From Verrucomicrobiota bacterium (GTDB taxonomy: Bacteria; Verrucomicrobiota; Verrucomicrobiia; Limisphaerales; PALSA-1396): a DNA stretch of 64,000 bases. Of the stretch, positions 2,943 to 24,419 are shown piece after piece; positions within the stretch are counted from its first letter, which is position 1, and each line of letters starts with the position of its first letter. The notes under the pieces are model-generated. The model was not told the DNA's origin and made no database searches. It saw only the letters and a program-made list of their open reading frames with translations. The DNA lies in contig JACQFP010000019.1 in assembly GCA_016200005.1 (NCBI GenBank), positions 1 through 64,000 of the forward strand, given 5' to 3'. The position numbers and the translations under genes were made by a program.

Positions 2943-5600
2943 ATGGACTGGCAGAAAGTAAAAGCGATTTTCACAGAAGCCGCCGGGATGGCTTCGCCGG
3001 CGGAGCGTGCCGCATATCTCGATTCAGCCTGCGCAGGCGATCAGTCGCTGCGTGCGCAGGTGGAATCCTTCCTCGCCGATCAGCTCAAGCTGGGAGATTT
3101 TCTCGAACCTCCATTTGTCCAAACCTCCACAGACGATCCGGAAACCGTCGGCACCCGCATCGGCCCGTACAAGGTTCTCCAGAAAATCGGTGAAGGTGGA
3201 TTCGGTATCGTCTATATGGCCGAACAGGACGAACCCATCCGACGCAAGGTCGCCCTCAAAGTCATCAAAGCAGGGATGGACACCAAACAGGTGATCGCCC
3301 GCTTTGAAGCCGAGCGGCAGGCCCTGGCGATGATGGATCATCCGAACATCGCACGCGTTTTCGACGCCGGCGAGACGGACACGGGCCGGCCTTACTTCGT
3401 GATGGAACTGGTCAAAGGGATTCCACTGACCGAGTTCTGCGACCGCAAAAAGCTCAACGCCCGCGAGCGCCTCGAATTGTTCATCAAGGTTTGTCAGGCC
3501 GTCCAGCACGCCCATCAGAAAGGGATCATTCACCGCGATCTCAAGCCCTCCAACGTGATGATCACGATGCTGGACGGGCAGCCTGTTCCCAAGGTCATTG
3601 ACTTCGGCGTTGCCAAAGCCATCGAACAACGGCTCACGGAGAAAACCCTTTTCACCCGCTACGACCAGTTGATTGGGACGCCGGCCTACATGAGTCCGGA
3701 GCAGGCCGAGTTAAGCGGGCAGGATGTGGACACGCGCAGCGACATCTATTCGCTGGGCGTGTTGCTTTATGAACTGTTGACCGGCACACCGCCGATTGAT
3801 GCGGAGACCCTGCGCAAAGCCGGTCTGGATGAAATCCGGCGGCTGATCCGCGAGACCGACCCGCCCCCACCTTCCACGCGACTCACCCAGGAACTCGTAG
3901 CAGCCGATAAGGTAGGGCGCGTCACTCCGCGCGCGTCGTCGTCGGATGAAAGCATATCTGATGGCGCGCACGGAGTGACGCGCCCTACCCCGAAATCCGA
4001 AGAGGAAGTCAGGGCCTCCTCACGTCGGCTCCTACAACTGAAGGAAACGATCCGTTTCGTCCGTGGCGACCTGGATTGGATCGTGATGAAGTGCCTGGAG
4101 AAAGACCGCGCATGCCGATACGAAACAGCCAATGGCCTCGCGATGGATCTACAGCGGCACTTGAATCACGAACCTGTCGTCGCCCGTCCGCCCGGCAACC
4201 TTTACCGCTTCCGCAAATTTGCCCGGCGCAACCGGATTCAGGTGGCCTTTGCGGCGAGCGTTGCGGCGGCGCTGATAGTGGGTCTGGTCTTTGCAGTGAT
4301 CGGATTTGCAAAAGCAAGGCAAGAACGGGACCGGGCACTGGCAGCGGAAAGGCAGGCGAAAGCTCAACAGCAAATCGCCCAGACGGAAGCCGCCCGCAGC
4401 GCACAAGTGGCGAAATTCCTGAAAGATATGTTGGGCGGCGCGAGTCCCGCCATCGCCCAAGGCCGCGACACCACGATCCTGCGGGAAATTCTGGATCGAA
4501 CGGCAGGCAGGCTGGAAAAGGAACTGGCAAGTCAGCCCGACGTGGAGGCCGACCTGCGCGCAGTGCTGGGCCAGATCTATCTTGATCTGGACGACTACAC
4601 GAATGCTGCCGCGATGTACGAGCGGGCGCTGAACTTGCGCAAGAGAGTGCATGGCGACCAGCACCTGGATGTTGCGGTTTCGCTGTACTTCCTCGCGGAT
4701 CTGCGCCAGCGGCAACGCCGGTATGCCGAGGCCGAGAGCTTGTTTCGCGAAGCCCTGGCCATACGTCGGAAACTGCTTGATACAAACCATCCTGATGTTG
4801 CCAGATCACTCCACCGTCTTGCGAGCGTGCTGGCCGGTCAGGACGGAGCCAAGTCTGCTGAAGCCGTCACGCTGTATGCCGAGGCCGAGCGTTTGACGCG
4901 CGAACTGCTGGAAACCCGGCGCGCGGCATCGGACAATGAGCCCCACGAAATCCTCAGAATAATGGGGCGCTTGCGCGGAATCCTAATGCGCCAAGGCAAG
5001 TACGCCGAGGCCGAGTCCGTCATCCGTGAAGCGGGAACACTGCGGATGCAATTGCCGGAAGTGGAAAGAACCACTATTGGCGGAGGCCTTTTCGATTTGT
5101 CGGGATTCCTAATCAGCCAGAACAGGTTGCACGAGGCAGAGGCAGTCAGTCGCGAAGTATTGGCGGGTCGGAGGCGAGTCTTCGGCGATCAACATCGCGA
5201 GACCGCCCAAGCCCTCTCGGTCTTGGCCAATGTGCTCAAAGCCCAAGGGAGACTGCCCGAAGCCGAAACCGCTGTTCGCGAAGTGCTGGCGATTTTCGAC
5301 AAAATTGCTCCCGGAAGTTGGGAGACTTTCTCCAACCGGATCAAGTTGGGCGGCATCCTGCTCGCAGAGAAAAAATATGAAGAAGCCGAACCCTTGCTGC
5401 TCGCCGGTTACGAGGGCATCAAACAGCGAGGCGACCAGTCCCCGGTCAGTTACGAGGGGACTCTGAAACAGGTGCTCCAGCAACTGGTGCAACTCTACGA
5501 GGAAACGGGGCAGGCAAAACAGGCCGCCGAGTGGAAACAGAAGCTGGCCGAGTTCGACCAAGGCGAACGCCAGAAGCCAGCCGTCGTTCCCAATCCATAG
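2943..5600 (+). CDS. membrane Ser/Thr protein kinase with TPR repeats
   Basis: This 885-residue Hanks-type kinase is predicted to be anchored in the inner membrane. The kinase domain spans about residues 74-400, with the glycine loop GEGGFG (84-89), VALK lysine (~106), HRDLKPSN (catalytic D199), DFG (D220) and [12 protein letters not shown] (activation/P+1 loop). One transmembrane helix lies at about 431-456, followed by a charged coiled segment and many TPR motifs of the ALxIRRKLLDxxHPDVA type up to the C-terminus. I start at ATG 2943 (MDWQKVK) because the 18 upstream residues are encoded by intergenic repeat sequence. Residues 323-349 are encoded by an in-frame REP-like palindrome. The gene pairs with the ECF sigma gene upstream. 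Its target is unknown; neighbouring secreted repeat proteins are plausible outputs. Confidence 0.92.
3911..3989. repeat. REP-like palindrome inside the kinase coding sequence
   Basis: The arms GGTAGGGCGCGTCACTCCG and CGGAGTGACGCGCCCTACC face each other across a ~40-bp loop. A second copy at 57243-57322 has an identical right arm of 27-28 nt. Here the element is read in frame as [25 protein letters not shown], a serine-rich stretch in the kinase C-lobe region where family members have a short linker. The matched intergenic copy shows that this is an inserted element rather than ancestral kinase sequence. Confidence 0.85.
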
Positions 5601-5626
5601 AAGCTCCCTTATCAATAATCATAGCA

Positions 5627-5698
5627 GCGGACGTCTGTCCGCTCAATTCTCAAGCGGCGCATCGCGGCCCAGTTCCCGGCGCGCGGCCTTCAGGCCGC
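5627..5698. repeat. two short palindromes after the TPR kinase
   Basis: GCGGACGTCTGTCCGC (5627-5642) and GCGGCCTTCAGGCCGC (5683-5698) are perfect or near-perfect 16-nt palindromes in the 268-bp gap between the kinase and the next gene. The first has the GCGGACR/YGTCCGC core also seen at 45.4 kb and 58.2 kb. They could form mRNA hairpins that end or protect the kinase transcript, but no T-run follows. Nothing else is recognisable in this gap. Confidence 0.5.
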
Positions 5699-5868
5699 TT
5701 CAGCACCCGGCTGTCGAGATGCGCCTGTTTAACGAAAAAAAGTCAAAGCCTGCTCTCGCCTGCTGCTGGTTGGAAACTTTTTCATCTTTCTTGAAGGGTT
5801 TTCCGCCGCCACGTCGCACTGAAGGATGAAGCCAGCACAACCGCCAAATTCAGCGAAAGGCTATTAAT

Positions 5869-20576: not shown

Positions 20577-22190
20577 TCACAGCGGCTTCTGATGAATTTG
20601 CTGGTGCGCGGCAGCGATGAAACCTTTGAACAACGGATGCGGCTGGTGCGGCTTGCTGTGAAACTCCGGATGGAACTGGCTCGCGATGAAGAACGGGTGA
20701 TCGGCCAGTTCCATGACCTCGACCAGTTTGCCATCCGGCGTGAAACCGCTGAACACAACTCCCGCCTTCTCGAATCGCTCGCGATAGGCGTTGTTGAATT
20801 CGTAGCGATGGCGATGTCGCTCGTTGACGACAAACGCGCCGTAAAGTTGAGCTGCCTTCGTGCCCATCACCAACTGGCACGGCTGCGCGCCCAGCCGCAT
20901 CGTGCCGCCTTTCTTCGTCACCTTGGTCTGCCCGTCGAGCAGCGCGATGACGGGGTGTGGCGTGGTCGGGTCGAATTCTGTCGAATGCGCCTTCTCCAGT
21001 TTCAAAACGTTTCGCGCAAACTCGATGGTCGCGATCTGCATTCCCAAGCAAAGGCCGAGATAGGGAATCTTGTTTTCGCGTGCGTACTTGGCGGCCAAAA
21101 TCTTCCCTTGCACGCCGCGCTCGCCAAAACCGCCCGGCACAAGGATTCCTCCAAGTCCCTTCAATAGTTTCTCCGCGCCGTCGCGTTCGAGGTCCTCGGC
21201 GTCCACCTTTTGCAACTCCACACCGCAATCGTTGGCCACGCCGCCGTGGATGATCGCCTCATAGACCGACTTGTAAGCGTCGTTCAACTCGATGTATTTG
21301 CCGACGACGCCGATGCGGACGCGATGCCGGGGCGCGATGAGTTTGCGGATGATTTCCTGCCAGTGCGTCATGTTGGCGGGCGGCGTGTCGAGGTGCAACT
21401 GGCGGCAGATCAAATCGTCCAGCCGCTCGCGTTGCAGCATCAGCGGCACTTCATAAATGCTGTGCTCCACGTCCTGCTCCTCGATGACCGCGTCGTAAGG
21501 CACGTTGCAGAACATGGAAATCTTCTGGCGCAATTCCTTGTCGAGCGGTTTCTCGCAACGGCACACGAGAATATGCGGCGCGATGCCGATTTCGCGCAGC
21601 TTGGCGACGCTTTGCTGAGTGGGTTTCGTCTTCAATTCGCCCGCGGCCTTGATGAACGGCACGTAGGTCAGATGCACGAAGATGGCGTTGTTGTAGCCGA
21701 CTTCGAGCGCGAATTCGCGGATCGCTTCGAGGAACGGCAACCCTTCAATGTCGCCGGTCGTGCCGCCAATCTCCGTGATGACGACGTCGGCCTTGGTTTG
21801 TTCCGCCAGCAGGTGAATGCGATTCTTGATTTCGTCGGTGACGTGCGGAATGACTTGCACGGTTTTGCCGAGGTATTTTCCTTCGCGCTCGTTATTGAGG
21901 ACGGTCTGATAAACCTGGCCGCTGGTGAGATTGTTGATGCGCGTGAGCTTGACGTTGGTGAAGCGCTCATAATGACCGAGGTCGAGGTCGGTCTCCGCGC
22001 CGTCGTCGAGCACGTAAACCTCACCGTGCTGATAAGGGCTCATCGTGCCGGGATCGACGTTGAGGTAGGGATCAAACTTCTGGAGCGCGACCTTGAGGCC
22101 GCGATTTTCAAGCAACGTGCCGAGCGCGGCGGCTGTCAGGCCCTTGCCCAACGAACTGACCACACCGCCGGTGACGAAAATGAATTTCAT
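20577..22190 (-). CDS. pyrG: CTP synthase
   Basis: PyrG makes CTP from UTP, ATP and glutamine. The protein starts [17 protein letters not shown] (nucleotide-binding loop) and carries [36 protein letters not shown] and [17 protein letters not shown] of the synthetase domain. The C-terminal class I glutamine amidotransferase has [18 protein letters not shown] (nucleophile Cys) and [11 protein letters not shown] (His/Glu). I start at ATG 22190, giving 537 residues, the usual length. The longer open frame to 22307 is low-complexity intergenic sequence. It lies 118 bp downstream of the toxin-KdsB fusion, as kdsB and pyrG are neighbours in many Gram-negative genomes. Confidence 0.97.
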
Positions 22191-22308: not shown

Positions 22309-23394
22309 TCATGTTTTCAAAATTCTTTCCACCCGCGCAACATCCTCCGGCGTGTCCACGCCGACGCTATCGTAATCAACCTTCACGACCGCGATTTGAA
22401 TGCCGTTTTCCAACGCGCGCAATTGTTCCAGTTTTTCCGCTGCTTCCAGCGGCGAAACCGGAAATTTCACCAGCCGCAACAACGTCTCGCGCCGATAACC
22501 GTAAATGCCCAGGTGCTTCAAAAAAGGAAACGCCGCCAACTGTTCGCTGACCGAACGACTTGCGGCCTCACGCAGATACGGTATCGTGCGCCGGGAAAAG
22601 TATAGGGCGCGACCGGAGGCGTTGACAATGACTTTTACGACATTCGGATTGTCATAATCGGCGGAGTTCTTGATCCAGGTGGCGGCGGTGGACATCTCGT
22701 TATTGGCCAGCGCCGCCGCGACGGCGTCAATCACCGCTGGTTCGATCAACGGCTCGTCGCCCTGGATGTTGACCACGGCATCGCAATCGCAACGCGCCGC
22801 GACTTCTGCGATCCGGTCCGAGCCGCTCGGATGATCTTCGCGCGTCATCTCAACGCGGCAAAACTTCTGCGCCGCGTCGCGAATGCGTGTGTCATCCGTG
22901 GCCACGATGACTTCGCTCAACGACTTGGCCTTCTTGCATTGCTCGACGACGTGCTGGATGAGCGGCTTGCCGGCGATGGACTTGAGCGGTTTGCCGGGAA
23001 AACGCGTCGAGGCGTAGCGGGCGGGGATGATGCCGAGGATGCGTCGAATTTCCGCAGGCTGTGGTTGTAAAGTTTGGCTTAACCGCGACAGAAGGCGTTG
23101 CAATCTTGTATTGCTGATCCGCCCAACATAACCGCGTACGGCGGCATTTGAAATGGTTGCCAGAAATCCGATGCGAATGAGAGAATCTTCCACCAATCCG
23201 CTTCCGGCAAAGTCGTCATCGGCCCGGCGGATGAACTCGTCCACTTCCGGCACGAAATGACGGAGTTGGGTACTGACACCGCAAACGAGAAAATCCCCAA
23301 ATGGTTTTGCTTCGCGGAGAATCAGCACCGGACGCGGCTTGGATTGCCTGTCGGCCTGTGCCAACGCCGCTATGATGATATGGCCCGGCTTCAC
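22309..23394 (-). CDS. kdsB: in-frame fusion: PemK/MazF-type toxin domain + CMP-Kdo synthetase (KdsB)
   Basis: Residues 1-110 ([26 protein letters not shown] ... LVCGVSTQL ... [18 protein letters not shown] ... [13 protein letters not shown]) match the PemK/MazF-type endoribonuclease toxin fold, with the usual KPRPVLIL strand and a full domain length. Residues 119-361 are a complete CMP-3-deoxy-D-manno-octulosonate cytidylyltransferase: [41 protein letters not shown] and [13 protein letters not shown]. KdsB activates Kdo for lipid A core synthesis. There is no stop, and no ATG or GTG, between the domains; TTG and ATT codons occur, so a separate KdsB start on a rare codon is not excluded. The start overlaps the antitoxin gene by 4 bp. 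pyrG follows downstream and gmhB lies upstream. Confidence 0.9.
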
Positions 23395-23627
23395 TCGGAC
23401 GGAGGCATTTTGCCGATGCAGTGGGAATAATCCGGCTCATTTTCGCCGTAAGCGCGCGCGAGCGACTGCTGGCTGAACGCGAGCCAGGCAGCTCTTTCTT
23501 CGTCGAAGGTTTCTTCCGATTCAGGAAGGACCGTCACCATCAACTTCGAGTCGCGTTGGAGTTCGTAAGGCTCGTCCAGGCAAATTTGTTTTCCGTCAAA
23601 GTGAGCTTTCAAAGTGATTGCGCTCAT
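23391..23627 (-). CDS. type II antitoxin-like small protein
   Basis: This 78-residue protein begins MSAITLKAHFDGKQICLDEPYELQRDSKLMVTVLP, which matches the pattern of small antitoxins (DUF2281/AF2212-like) that precede RelE- or PemK-type toxins. The C-terminal part (EERAAWLAFSQQSLARAYGENEPDYS) would bind and neutralise the toxin. It overlaps the toxin-KdsB start by 4 bp (ATGA-type coupling), typical of toxin-antitoxin modules. The pairing supports reading the N-terminal domain of the next protein as a toxin. The 162 bp upstream to gmhB would hold the promoter; no clear motif was seen. Confidence 0.75.
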   Translation of the reverse strand: MSAITLKAHFDGKQICLDEPYELQRDSKLMVTVLPESEETFDEERAAWLAFSQQSLARAYGENEPDYSHCIGKMPPSE

Positions 23628-23789: not shown

Positions 23790-24419
23790 CTAAACGGACG
23801 CTTTCAGTATCCCCTCCGCTGCTGCAACCAAACCATCTACAATCACGGCTCTGCCAAGTTTATCGGCGGCTTGCTGTTCCCATTCCTTGCCATAGCCAGT
23901 CCGCACGAGCAGACATTTTTTTAAGCCGGCATTCCAGCCGCATTCCAAATCAATCAGCTTGTCACCGATCAGATAGCTTTGCGAAAGGTCAAGGCCGGAC
24001 TCGTCGCGCGCGTCGAACAGAAATTGCGGTGAAGGTTTGCGTCCACGGCTCGGCTGATCGGGCGCTTCGGGCGCGATGTAAATCTTCGTGATTCGCACAC
24101 CATCGCGAGCGAGTTGCTTGAGCAGATGCGCGTGAACCTTTTCAACCTCGGCCATCGTGAAATAGCCACGCCCCACGCCGGATTGGTTGGTGACGATGAA
24201 AAGCAGAAAGCCCGCGTTCTGCAATCGTTTCAACGCCTGGCCCACGCCCGGAAAAATCACCACGTCATCCGGGCGATGCAGATATTCCTTTTCCTCGATG
24301 AGCGTCCCATCGCGATCGAGGAAAACGGCATGGTGCAGGTTTCGATTCAATCGCTGATTGATAGAGAGGGACGGGTGAAATGAAAACTCAAAAGTGGGTT
24401 GGAAAACAAAAAGAGGCAC
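23790..24419 (-). CDS. gmhB: D-glycero-D-manno-heptose 1,7-bisphosphate 7-phosphatase-like HAD enzyme
   Basis: The protein is a HAD-IIIA phosphatase with the DxD motif FLDRDGTLIEE, followed by FPGVGQALKRLQNAGFLLFIVTNQSGVGRGYF, a KPSPQFL segment and SYLIGDKLIDLECGWNAGL. This matches GmhB, which removes the 7-phosphate during ADP-heptose synthesis for lipopolysaccharide core. Histidinol-phosphatase relatives share these motifs. The longest frame starts at ATG 24419, but the first ~25 residues lack family similarity; a TTG about 8 residues before the AVFLDRDGT segment is an alternative start. Together with kdsB it points to inner-core LPS synthesis. Confidence 0.85.
   Translation of the reverse strand: MPLFVFQPTFEFSFHPSLSINQRLNRNLHHAVFLDRDGTLIEEKEYLHRPDDVVIFPGVGQALKRLQNAGFLLFIVTNQSGVGRGYFTMAEVEKVHAHLLKQLARDGVRITKIYIAPEAPDQPSRGRKPSPQFLFDARDESGLDLSQSYLIGDKLIDLECGWNAGLKKCLLVRTGYGKEWEQQAADKLGRAVIVDGLVAAAEGILKASV

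Follow-up and report, generated by a model that had tools for sequence, protein, structure and literature searches.

The DNA analysed here, a window of 64,000 nucleotides from a bacterium of the Verrucomicrobiota, carries on its reverse strand a single frame of 361 codons (positions 22309-23394) that starts with GTG and runs without internal stop through two domains. Residues 1-112 (23059-23394) form a toxin domain of the PemK/MazF type, and residues 119-361 with the stop codon (22309-23040) correspond to the CMP-Kdo synthetase KdsB; the linker PAEIRR (residues 113-118, 23041-23058) joins the two. Two lines of evidence identify the toxin. First, the Pfam family PF02452 (PemK_toxin) matches residues 2-108 with an E value of 1.9e-8 and 34.9 bits, compared to a Pfam gathering score of 23.1. 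Second, the predicted structure, with pLDDT block means of 81-96 over residues 1-110, has the MazF/Kid barrel fold and superimposes on MazF-mt3 (5hk0_A) with a Z score of 15.0 and an rmsd of 2.1 Å over 103 residues. Both sequence score and fold point to a PemK/MazF-type toxin with predicted RNase activity. In the second half, TIGR00466 (kdsB, NCBIfam) covers residues 122-352 with 234.4 bits, above the equivalog cut-off of 155.2, and PF02348 (CTP_transf_3, Pfam) covers residues 121-334 with an E value of 1.8e-59. The best structural match of this half is the CMP-Kdo synthetase 4xwi_A (Z 16.8, 2.7 Å, 139 residues), obtained with a model that is poor due to a shallow alignment. This part is thus predicted to be a complete enzyme domain with CMP-Kdo synthetase activity. 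A previous sequence-only reading of this DNA had placed a PemK/MazF domain and a complete KdsB in one 361-residue open reading frame, and the reading frame as well as the Pfam and NCBIfam matches agree with this description.

Upstream of the toxin part, an open reading frame for a putative antitoxin of 78 amino acids is located on the same strand (23391-23627). Its stop codon TGA lies within the start of the toxin, giving the overlap GTGA (23391-23394). The gene is conserved in this position: it immediately precedes the toxin in all seven fused loci that we have found as well as in many stand-alone loci, and the 4-bp overlap, either GTGA or ATGA, is present in all seven. The only family match is weak, to the RelN antitoxin (NF050107, NCBIfam), and with 19.2 bits against a cut-off of 70 (E 0.0014) it indicates resemblance to this family rather than membership. 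A small antitoxin gene that adjoins the toxin in the same operon is the arrangement of type II toxin-antitoxin systems. The toxin-antitoxin nature of the pair and the 4-bp overlap had already been suggested by the sequence-only reading; the former is supported and the latter confirmed here.

The module is embedded in a conserved genetic context. On the same strand, the fused gene is preceded by a gmhB-like gene for a phosphatase with matches to the HAD families of Pfam (23790-24419) and followed by pyrG for CTP synthase (20577-22187, Pfam CTP_synth_N and GATase), which probably starts at the ATG at 22187. In nearly all examined relatives, pyrG follows kdsB, and gmhB often precedes it. The earlier idea that the module sits between gmhB and kdsB therefore holds in a setting, gmhB-kdsB-pyrG, that is itself conserved. 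The module is found immediately before kdsB; in the window genome (G000), G102 and G141 it directly follows gmhB, and in G019 it follows gmhB-glmS. The fusion point corresponds to the native start of kdsB: unfused relatives start KdsB with ATG or GTG, or with TTG in the case of L026 and L085, and this start lies a few residues ahead of the motif ILGIIPARY, i. e. at the position that is occupied by the linker in the fused genes. The congener G001, whose KdsB is the sister of the window KdsB (support 100/97), has GTG AAA at the place of CGA CGC in the window. In another genome, G077, about 4 kb separate gmhB and kdsB (L150:460-4584); they contain genes for an AAA-type ATPase-like and a RadC-like protein, both named from sequence only. 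This suggests that the gap between gmhB and kdsB is a hot spot for insertions.

A search for the same domain architecture in related genomes, the check suggested by the sequence-only reading, was positive: full-length fusions are present in six further genomes of the same order (G047, G019, G112, G102, G103 and G141), all of them metagenome assemblies that were assembled independently in unrelated studies. They are 69-74% identical to the window protein over residues 1-359/360, and their frames encode 375-405 amino acids without any stop and with linkers similar in length to that of the window. In total, seven of the 320 genomes of the order, spanning five families, carry the fusion. Evenly drawn samples of 384 genomes of the class and 388 genomes of the phylum contained no fusion outside the order. 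A search of 84,980 species genomes with one conserved peptide pattern, which may miss more distant cases, yielded 43 relatives, none of them fused. Viral contigs contained one stand-alone relative and plasmids two matches annotated as PemK/MazF, again none fused, and the module had no match in a library of anti-phage defence systems.

The constituent families are known. The window toxin shares with the PemK/MazF type II modules (PF02452) the toxin fold, the conserved arginine at the start of strand 2 and the antitoxin-first order with the 4-bp overlap, and its stand-alone relatives, which are about 45-55% identical, occur in many phyla. Unlike these, it lacks a stop codon of its own and runs into a housekeeping enzyme. 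Similarly, the KdsB part is a complete enzyme domain of the TIGR00466 family that is up to 90% identical to the unfused KdsBs of the order and adjoins pyrG, whereas the fused form differs by the loss of the native start and by the 112-residue N-terminal toxin domain with its linker. Toxins that are covalently linked to another domain have been described, e. g. CapRel-SJ46, fused HicA/HicB and SMC-HicA, in which the toxin is combined with an antitoxin, with a sensor or with an SMC domain (PMC10865869). In the present case, the toxin is joined to a core enzyme of metabolism, and the antitoxin remains a separate protein. Our literature search, which covered a small part of the subscription journals, gave nothing relevant on PemK with KdsB or on toxin-enzyme fusions; a toxin that is joined covalently to a core enzyme of LPS synthesis at a recurring gene thus appears to be unreported in the literature searched.

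How can this arrangement be explained? We propose that a small type II toxin-antitoxin module of a PemK/MazF subfamily was inserted just 5' of kdsB, and that the toxin frame became continuous with kdsB while the native start codon of kdsB was lost. From such an operon, the antitoxin would be made first and the fused protein would follow by translational coupling over the 4-bp overlap; in the product, about six linker residues would connect an RNase domain of the MazF fold to the KdsB that follows. The antitoxin would restrain, in trans, the toxin domain on each KdsB chain that is started in this way, while KdsB works. Removal of the module would eliminate the start of KdsB, and loss of the antitoxin alone would free the toxin at the abundance of a housekeeping enzyme. 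The module may therefore be anchored to a core gene. We regard this reading, an inserted module that gave rise to an antitoxin-restrained toxin-KdsB fusion, is anchored to a core gene, has arisen at least two to three times and can decay again, as reasonably probable. The architecture with its recurrence, the selection on all three parts, the site with its synteny and the decay relics are observed, and the synthesis of one polypeptide, the retained RNase activity, the neutralisation in trans by the antitoxin and anchoring as the benefit are those parts of it that we infer. A bolder version, to which we would give somewhat less than an even chance, states that such modules have repeatedly and independently fused an active toxin to the same LPS enzyme, and that this is a hostage-type anchoring that makes the supply of KdsB dependent on the antitoxin. 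If this were true, a selfish module would have become inseparable from a housekeeping gene, and every KdsB molecule would bear an RNase that needs its antitoxin. KdsB is needed for building the outer membrane, and the persistence of chromosomal toxin-antitoxin modules is a long-standing question. The toxin-KdsB loci are a natural experiment on the stabilisation of toxin-antitoxin modules by linkage to a housekeeping function, and they make it testable whether a toxin domain is tolerated at the levels of a housekeeping enzyme.

The main rival to anchoring is domestication: the toxin domain may have ceased to be a killing RNase and may now act within KdsB as a domain for regulation or assembly that is partnered by the antitoxin, e. 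g. in the autoregulation of kdsB expression or of enzyme activity. The patterns of selection are relevant here, and they also count in favour of our main reading. The pN/pS ratios are below 1 in all pairs for all three parts, with values for the toxin of 0.20-0.65 over 21 pairs; thus, toxin, antitoxin and KdsB are all under purifying selection. In the comparison of G112 with G102, in which synonymous changes are unsaturated (pS about 0.52), the ratios of toxin, KdsB and antitoxin are 0.20, 0.17 and 0.30, respectively, and a constraint on the toxin close to that on KdsB is what domestication would predict. Moreover, the two proteins share an exchange of Thr to Arg at position 42. Residue R21 is invariant in all seven fused toxins, and each has a Ser or Thr at position 41 or 42, position 42 being Thr, Ser or Arg; R21 and this Ser/Thr, which lie near the presumed active site, may be equivalent to the catalytic pair of MazF. 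The exchange in G112 and G102 loses weight as an argument for domestication, however, since the stand-alone modules vary at residue 42 as well. The repeated fusion with the same partner again hints at a function, but the antitoxin has been kept in all seven loci, and most relatives in the order have a KdsB without any toxin domain. Taken together, we consider domestication unlikely, although it has to be taken seriously.

Does the continuous frame give rise to one protein? It is conceivable that KdsB is made separately, either because translation starts internally at a TTG, GTG or ATG close to the border or because the protein is cleaved by proteolysis. In this case, the locus would contain an embedded, coupled toxin-antitoxin module that has lost its toxin stop, and the fusion would not be the main product. 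The sequence-only reading had noted that neither a stop nor an ATG or GTG separates the two domains. For the linker of the window this is correct, as seen at the level of codons; among the relatives, by contrast, G103 has an ATG and both G112 and G102 have a GTG at the KdsB border, which in G112 is in frame and shortly preceded by GGAGG. Over the 45 codons that lead up to the KdsB core of the window, TTG at residue 98 (23101-23103, reverse strand) is the sole common in-frame start codon and represents a possible but weak internal start. It lies in the last toxin helix, 26 codons before PARY, and has a weak motif upstream; the duplex with the anti-Shine-Dalgarno sequence is calculated at -4.8 kcal/mol, as compared to -2.1 (sd 1.8) for the coding background. 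The stop-start coupling by ATGA that stand-alone relatives use towards the next gene also fits a separate KdsB. On the other hand, no start codon at the border is common to all seven fused genes, and among unchanged residues, identical codons are least frequent just there (identity 0.27-0.29, residues 91-115), which indicates that no common initiation signal has been kept. Moreover, none of the seven has retained the toxin stop. ATT at residue 116 was also considered as a conserved non-standard start and was rejected, as the codon is ATT, GTT, CCT or CCC among the fused genes. Separate synthesis as the general explanation is therefore improbable in our view, and a single polypeptide appears more likely; in some species with usable starts, such as G112 and G103, separate KdsB may be made in addition.

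The reading of repeated insertion and fusion depends on the number of origins. In the KdsB tree, the fused proteins are scattered, corresponding to seven changes, and a single clade is rejected (AU test, p 0.005). A single clade of fused toxins is rejected in the toxin tree as well (p 0.0005; 0.019 with a smaller set). In this tree, G112 and G102 adjoin the stand-alone toxin of G077, G141 adjoins the stand-alone toxins of G054, G018 and G072, and G000, G047, G019 and G103 group together with one stand-alone relative of unsettled placement among them; the starred branches force at least three changes. Since both trees reject one fused clade, the fusion seems to have at least two and probably three separate origins in the order. 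We limit the claim to this number because a tree in which six fused toxins are held as one clade and G141 is left out gives a borderline result (p 0.052); a reversal from fused to stand-alone is possible. Spread of the whole fused cassette by transfer was rejected as the fused KdsBs do not cluster in the KdsB tree. Alternatively, the ancestor of the order may already have had the toxin-KdsB fusion, and most lineages would have dropped the module and regained a start codon. Loss of the toxin with KdsB starting at its own ATG is indeed seen in G004 and G083, and G077, whose toxin is the sister to those of G112 and G102, carries a 21-nt remnant of the kdsB 5' end that overlaps the toxin stop, indicating that some stand-alone modules were derived from kdsB. 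With only seven of 320 genomes fused, however, an ancient fusion requires many clean losses; the positions of the fused toxins in several separate parts of the tree, with the changes forced there, speak against it, and so does the coexistence of fused and unfused congeners in each of the genera g1, g77 and g91. We therefore assign a low probability to a single ancient fusion. Finally, an artefact of sequencing, binning or assembly that joined two genes would be conceivable in draft assemblies such as these, but it is for practical purposes refuted by the independent recurrence of the fusion in seven assemblies from different studies, always in frame, with a similar linker and with the antitoxin present; thus, the fused frame is genuine and reflects neither chance nor a local frameshift.

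To what extent the cell depends on the fused gene differs between the genomes. In six of the seven fused genomes, no KdsB other than the fused one was found. The Kdo transferase, which uses CMP-Kdo, is represented by its family PF04413 in all seven, so the product of KdsB has a user. In the genome of the window, contig 14 carries another full-length kdsB (L002:1480-2235) that is 47% identical to the fused copy, and hence the latter need not be essential there. Similarly divergent KdsB paralogues are also present in G106 and G107. The prediction that loss of the module would kill LPS synthesis is thus weakened for the genome from which it was made and holds better for the other six, in which no second full KdsB was found. 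Moreover, escape is possible, as G004 and G083 have lost the toxin: in these two congeners of genus g4 (L009 and L156), a relic of the antitoxin precedes an unfused kdsB. Fusions can therefore decay by deletion of the toxin.

Together, the loci display a series of congeners without fusion, a remnant with a stop-start overlap, the fused gene itself and antitoxin relics left after decay. The coupled, remnant and decayed loci look like states around the same event, and their order in time is our reading of them. In the remnant locus of G077, the stop codon of the toxin shares bases with the GTG of the kdsB remnant, which is followed by a repeat of the 3' end of glmS. The module and the remnant form a segment of about 700 bp that lies between glmS 3'-end repeats (L149, reverse strand, about 5020-5758), and a further copy of the repeat is the end of glmS itself; the segment looks like a small cassette integrated at the tail of glmS. 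Toxins of this family can sit in tight coupling 5' of ordinary genes: stand-alone toxins directly overlap genes for a GH43 glycosidase (L138:1931-2800), a methyltransferase (L131:5327-6133) and a hexapeptide-repeat enzyme (L115:5339-5926). In other bacteria, the overlap with the next gene is sometimes ATGA, as seen for a hexapeptide-repeat enzyme in Gracilimonas and for a methyltransferase in a genome of the Chloroflexota. In G349 and G142, stand-alone modules overlap the start of cas3 of a type I-G CRISPR system by ATGA (L100:1842-2798 and L044, reverse strand, 1839-2150), i. e. the toxin-antitoxin pair appears to be translationally coupled to cas3.
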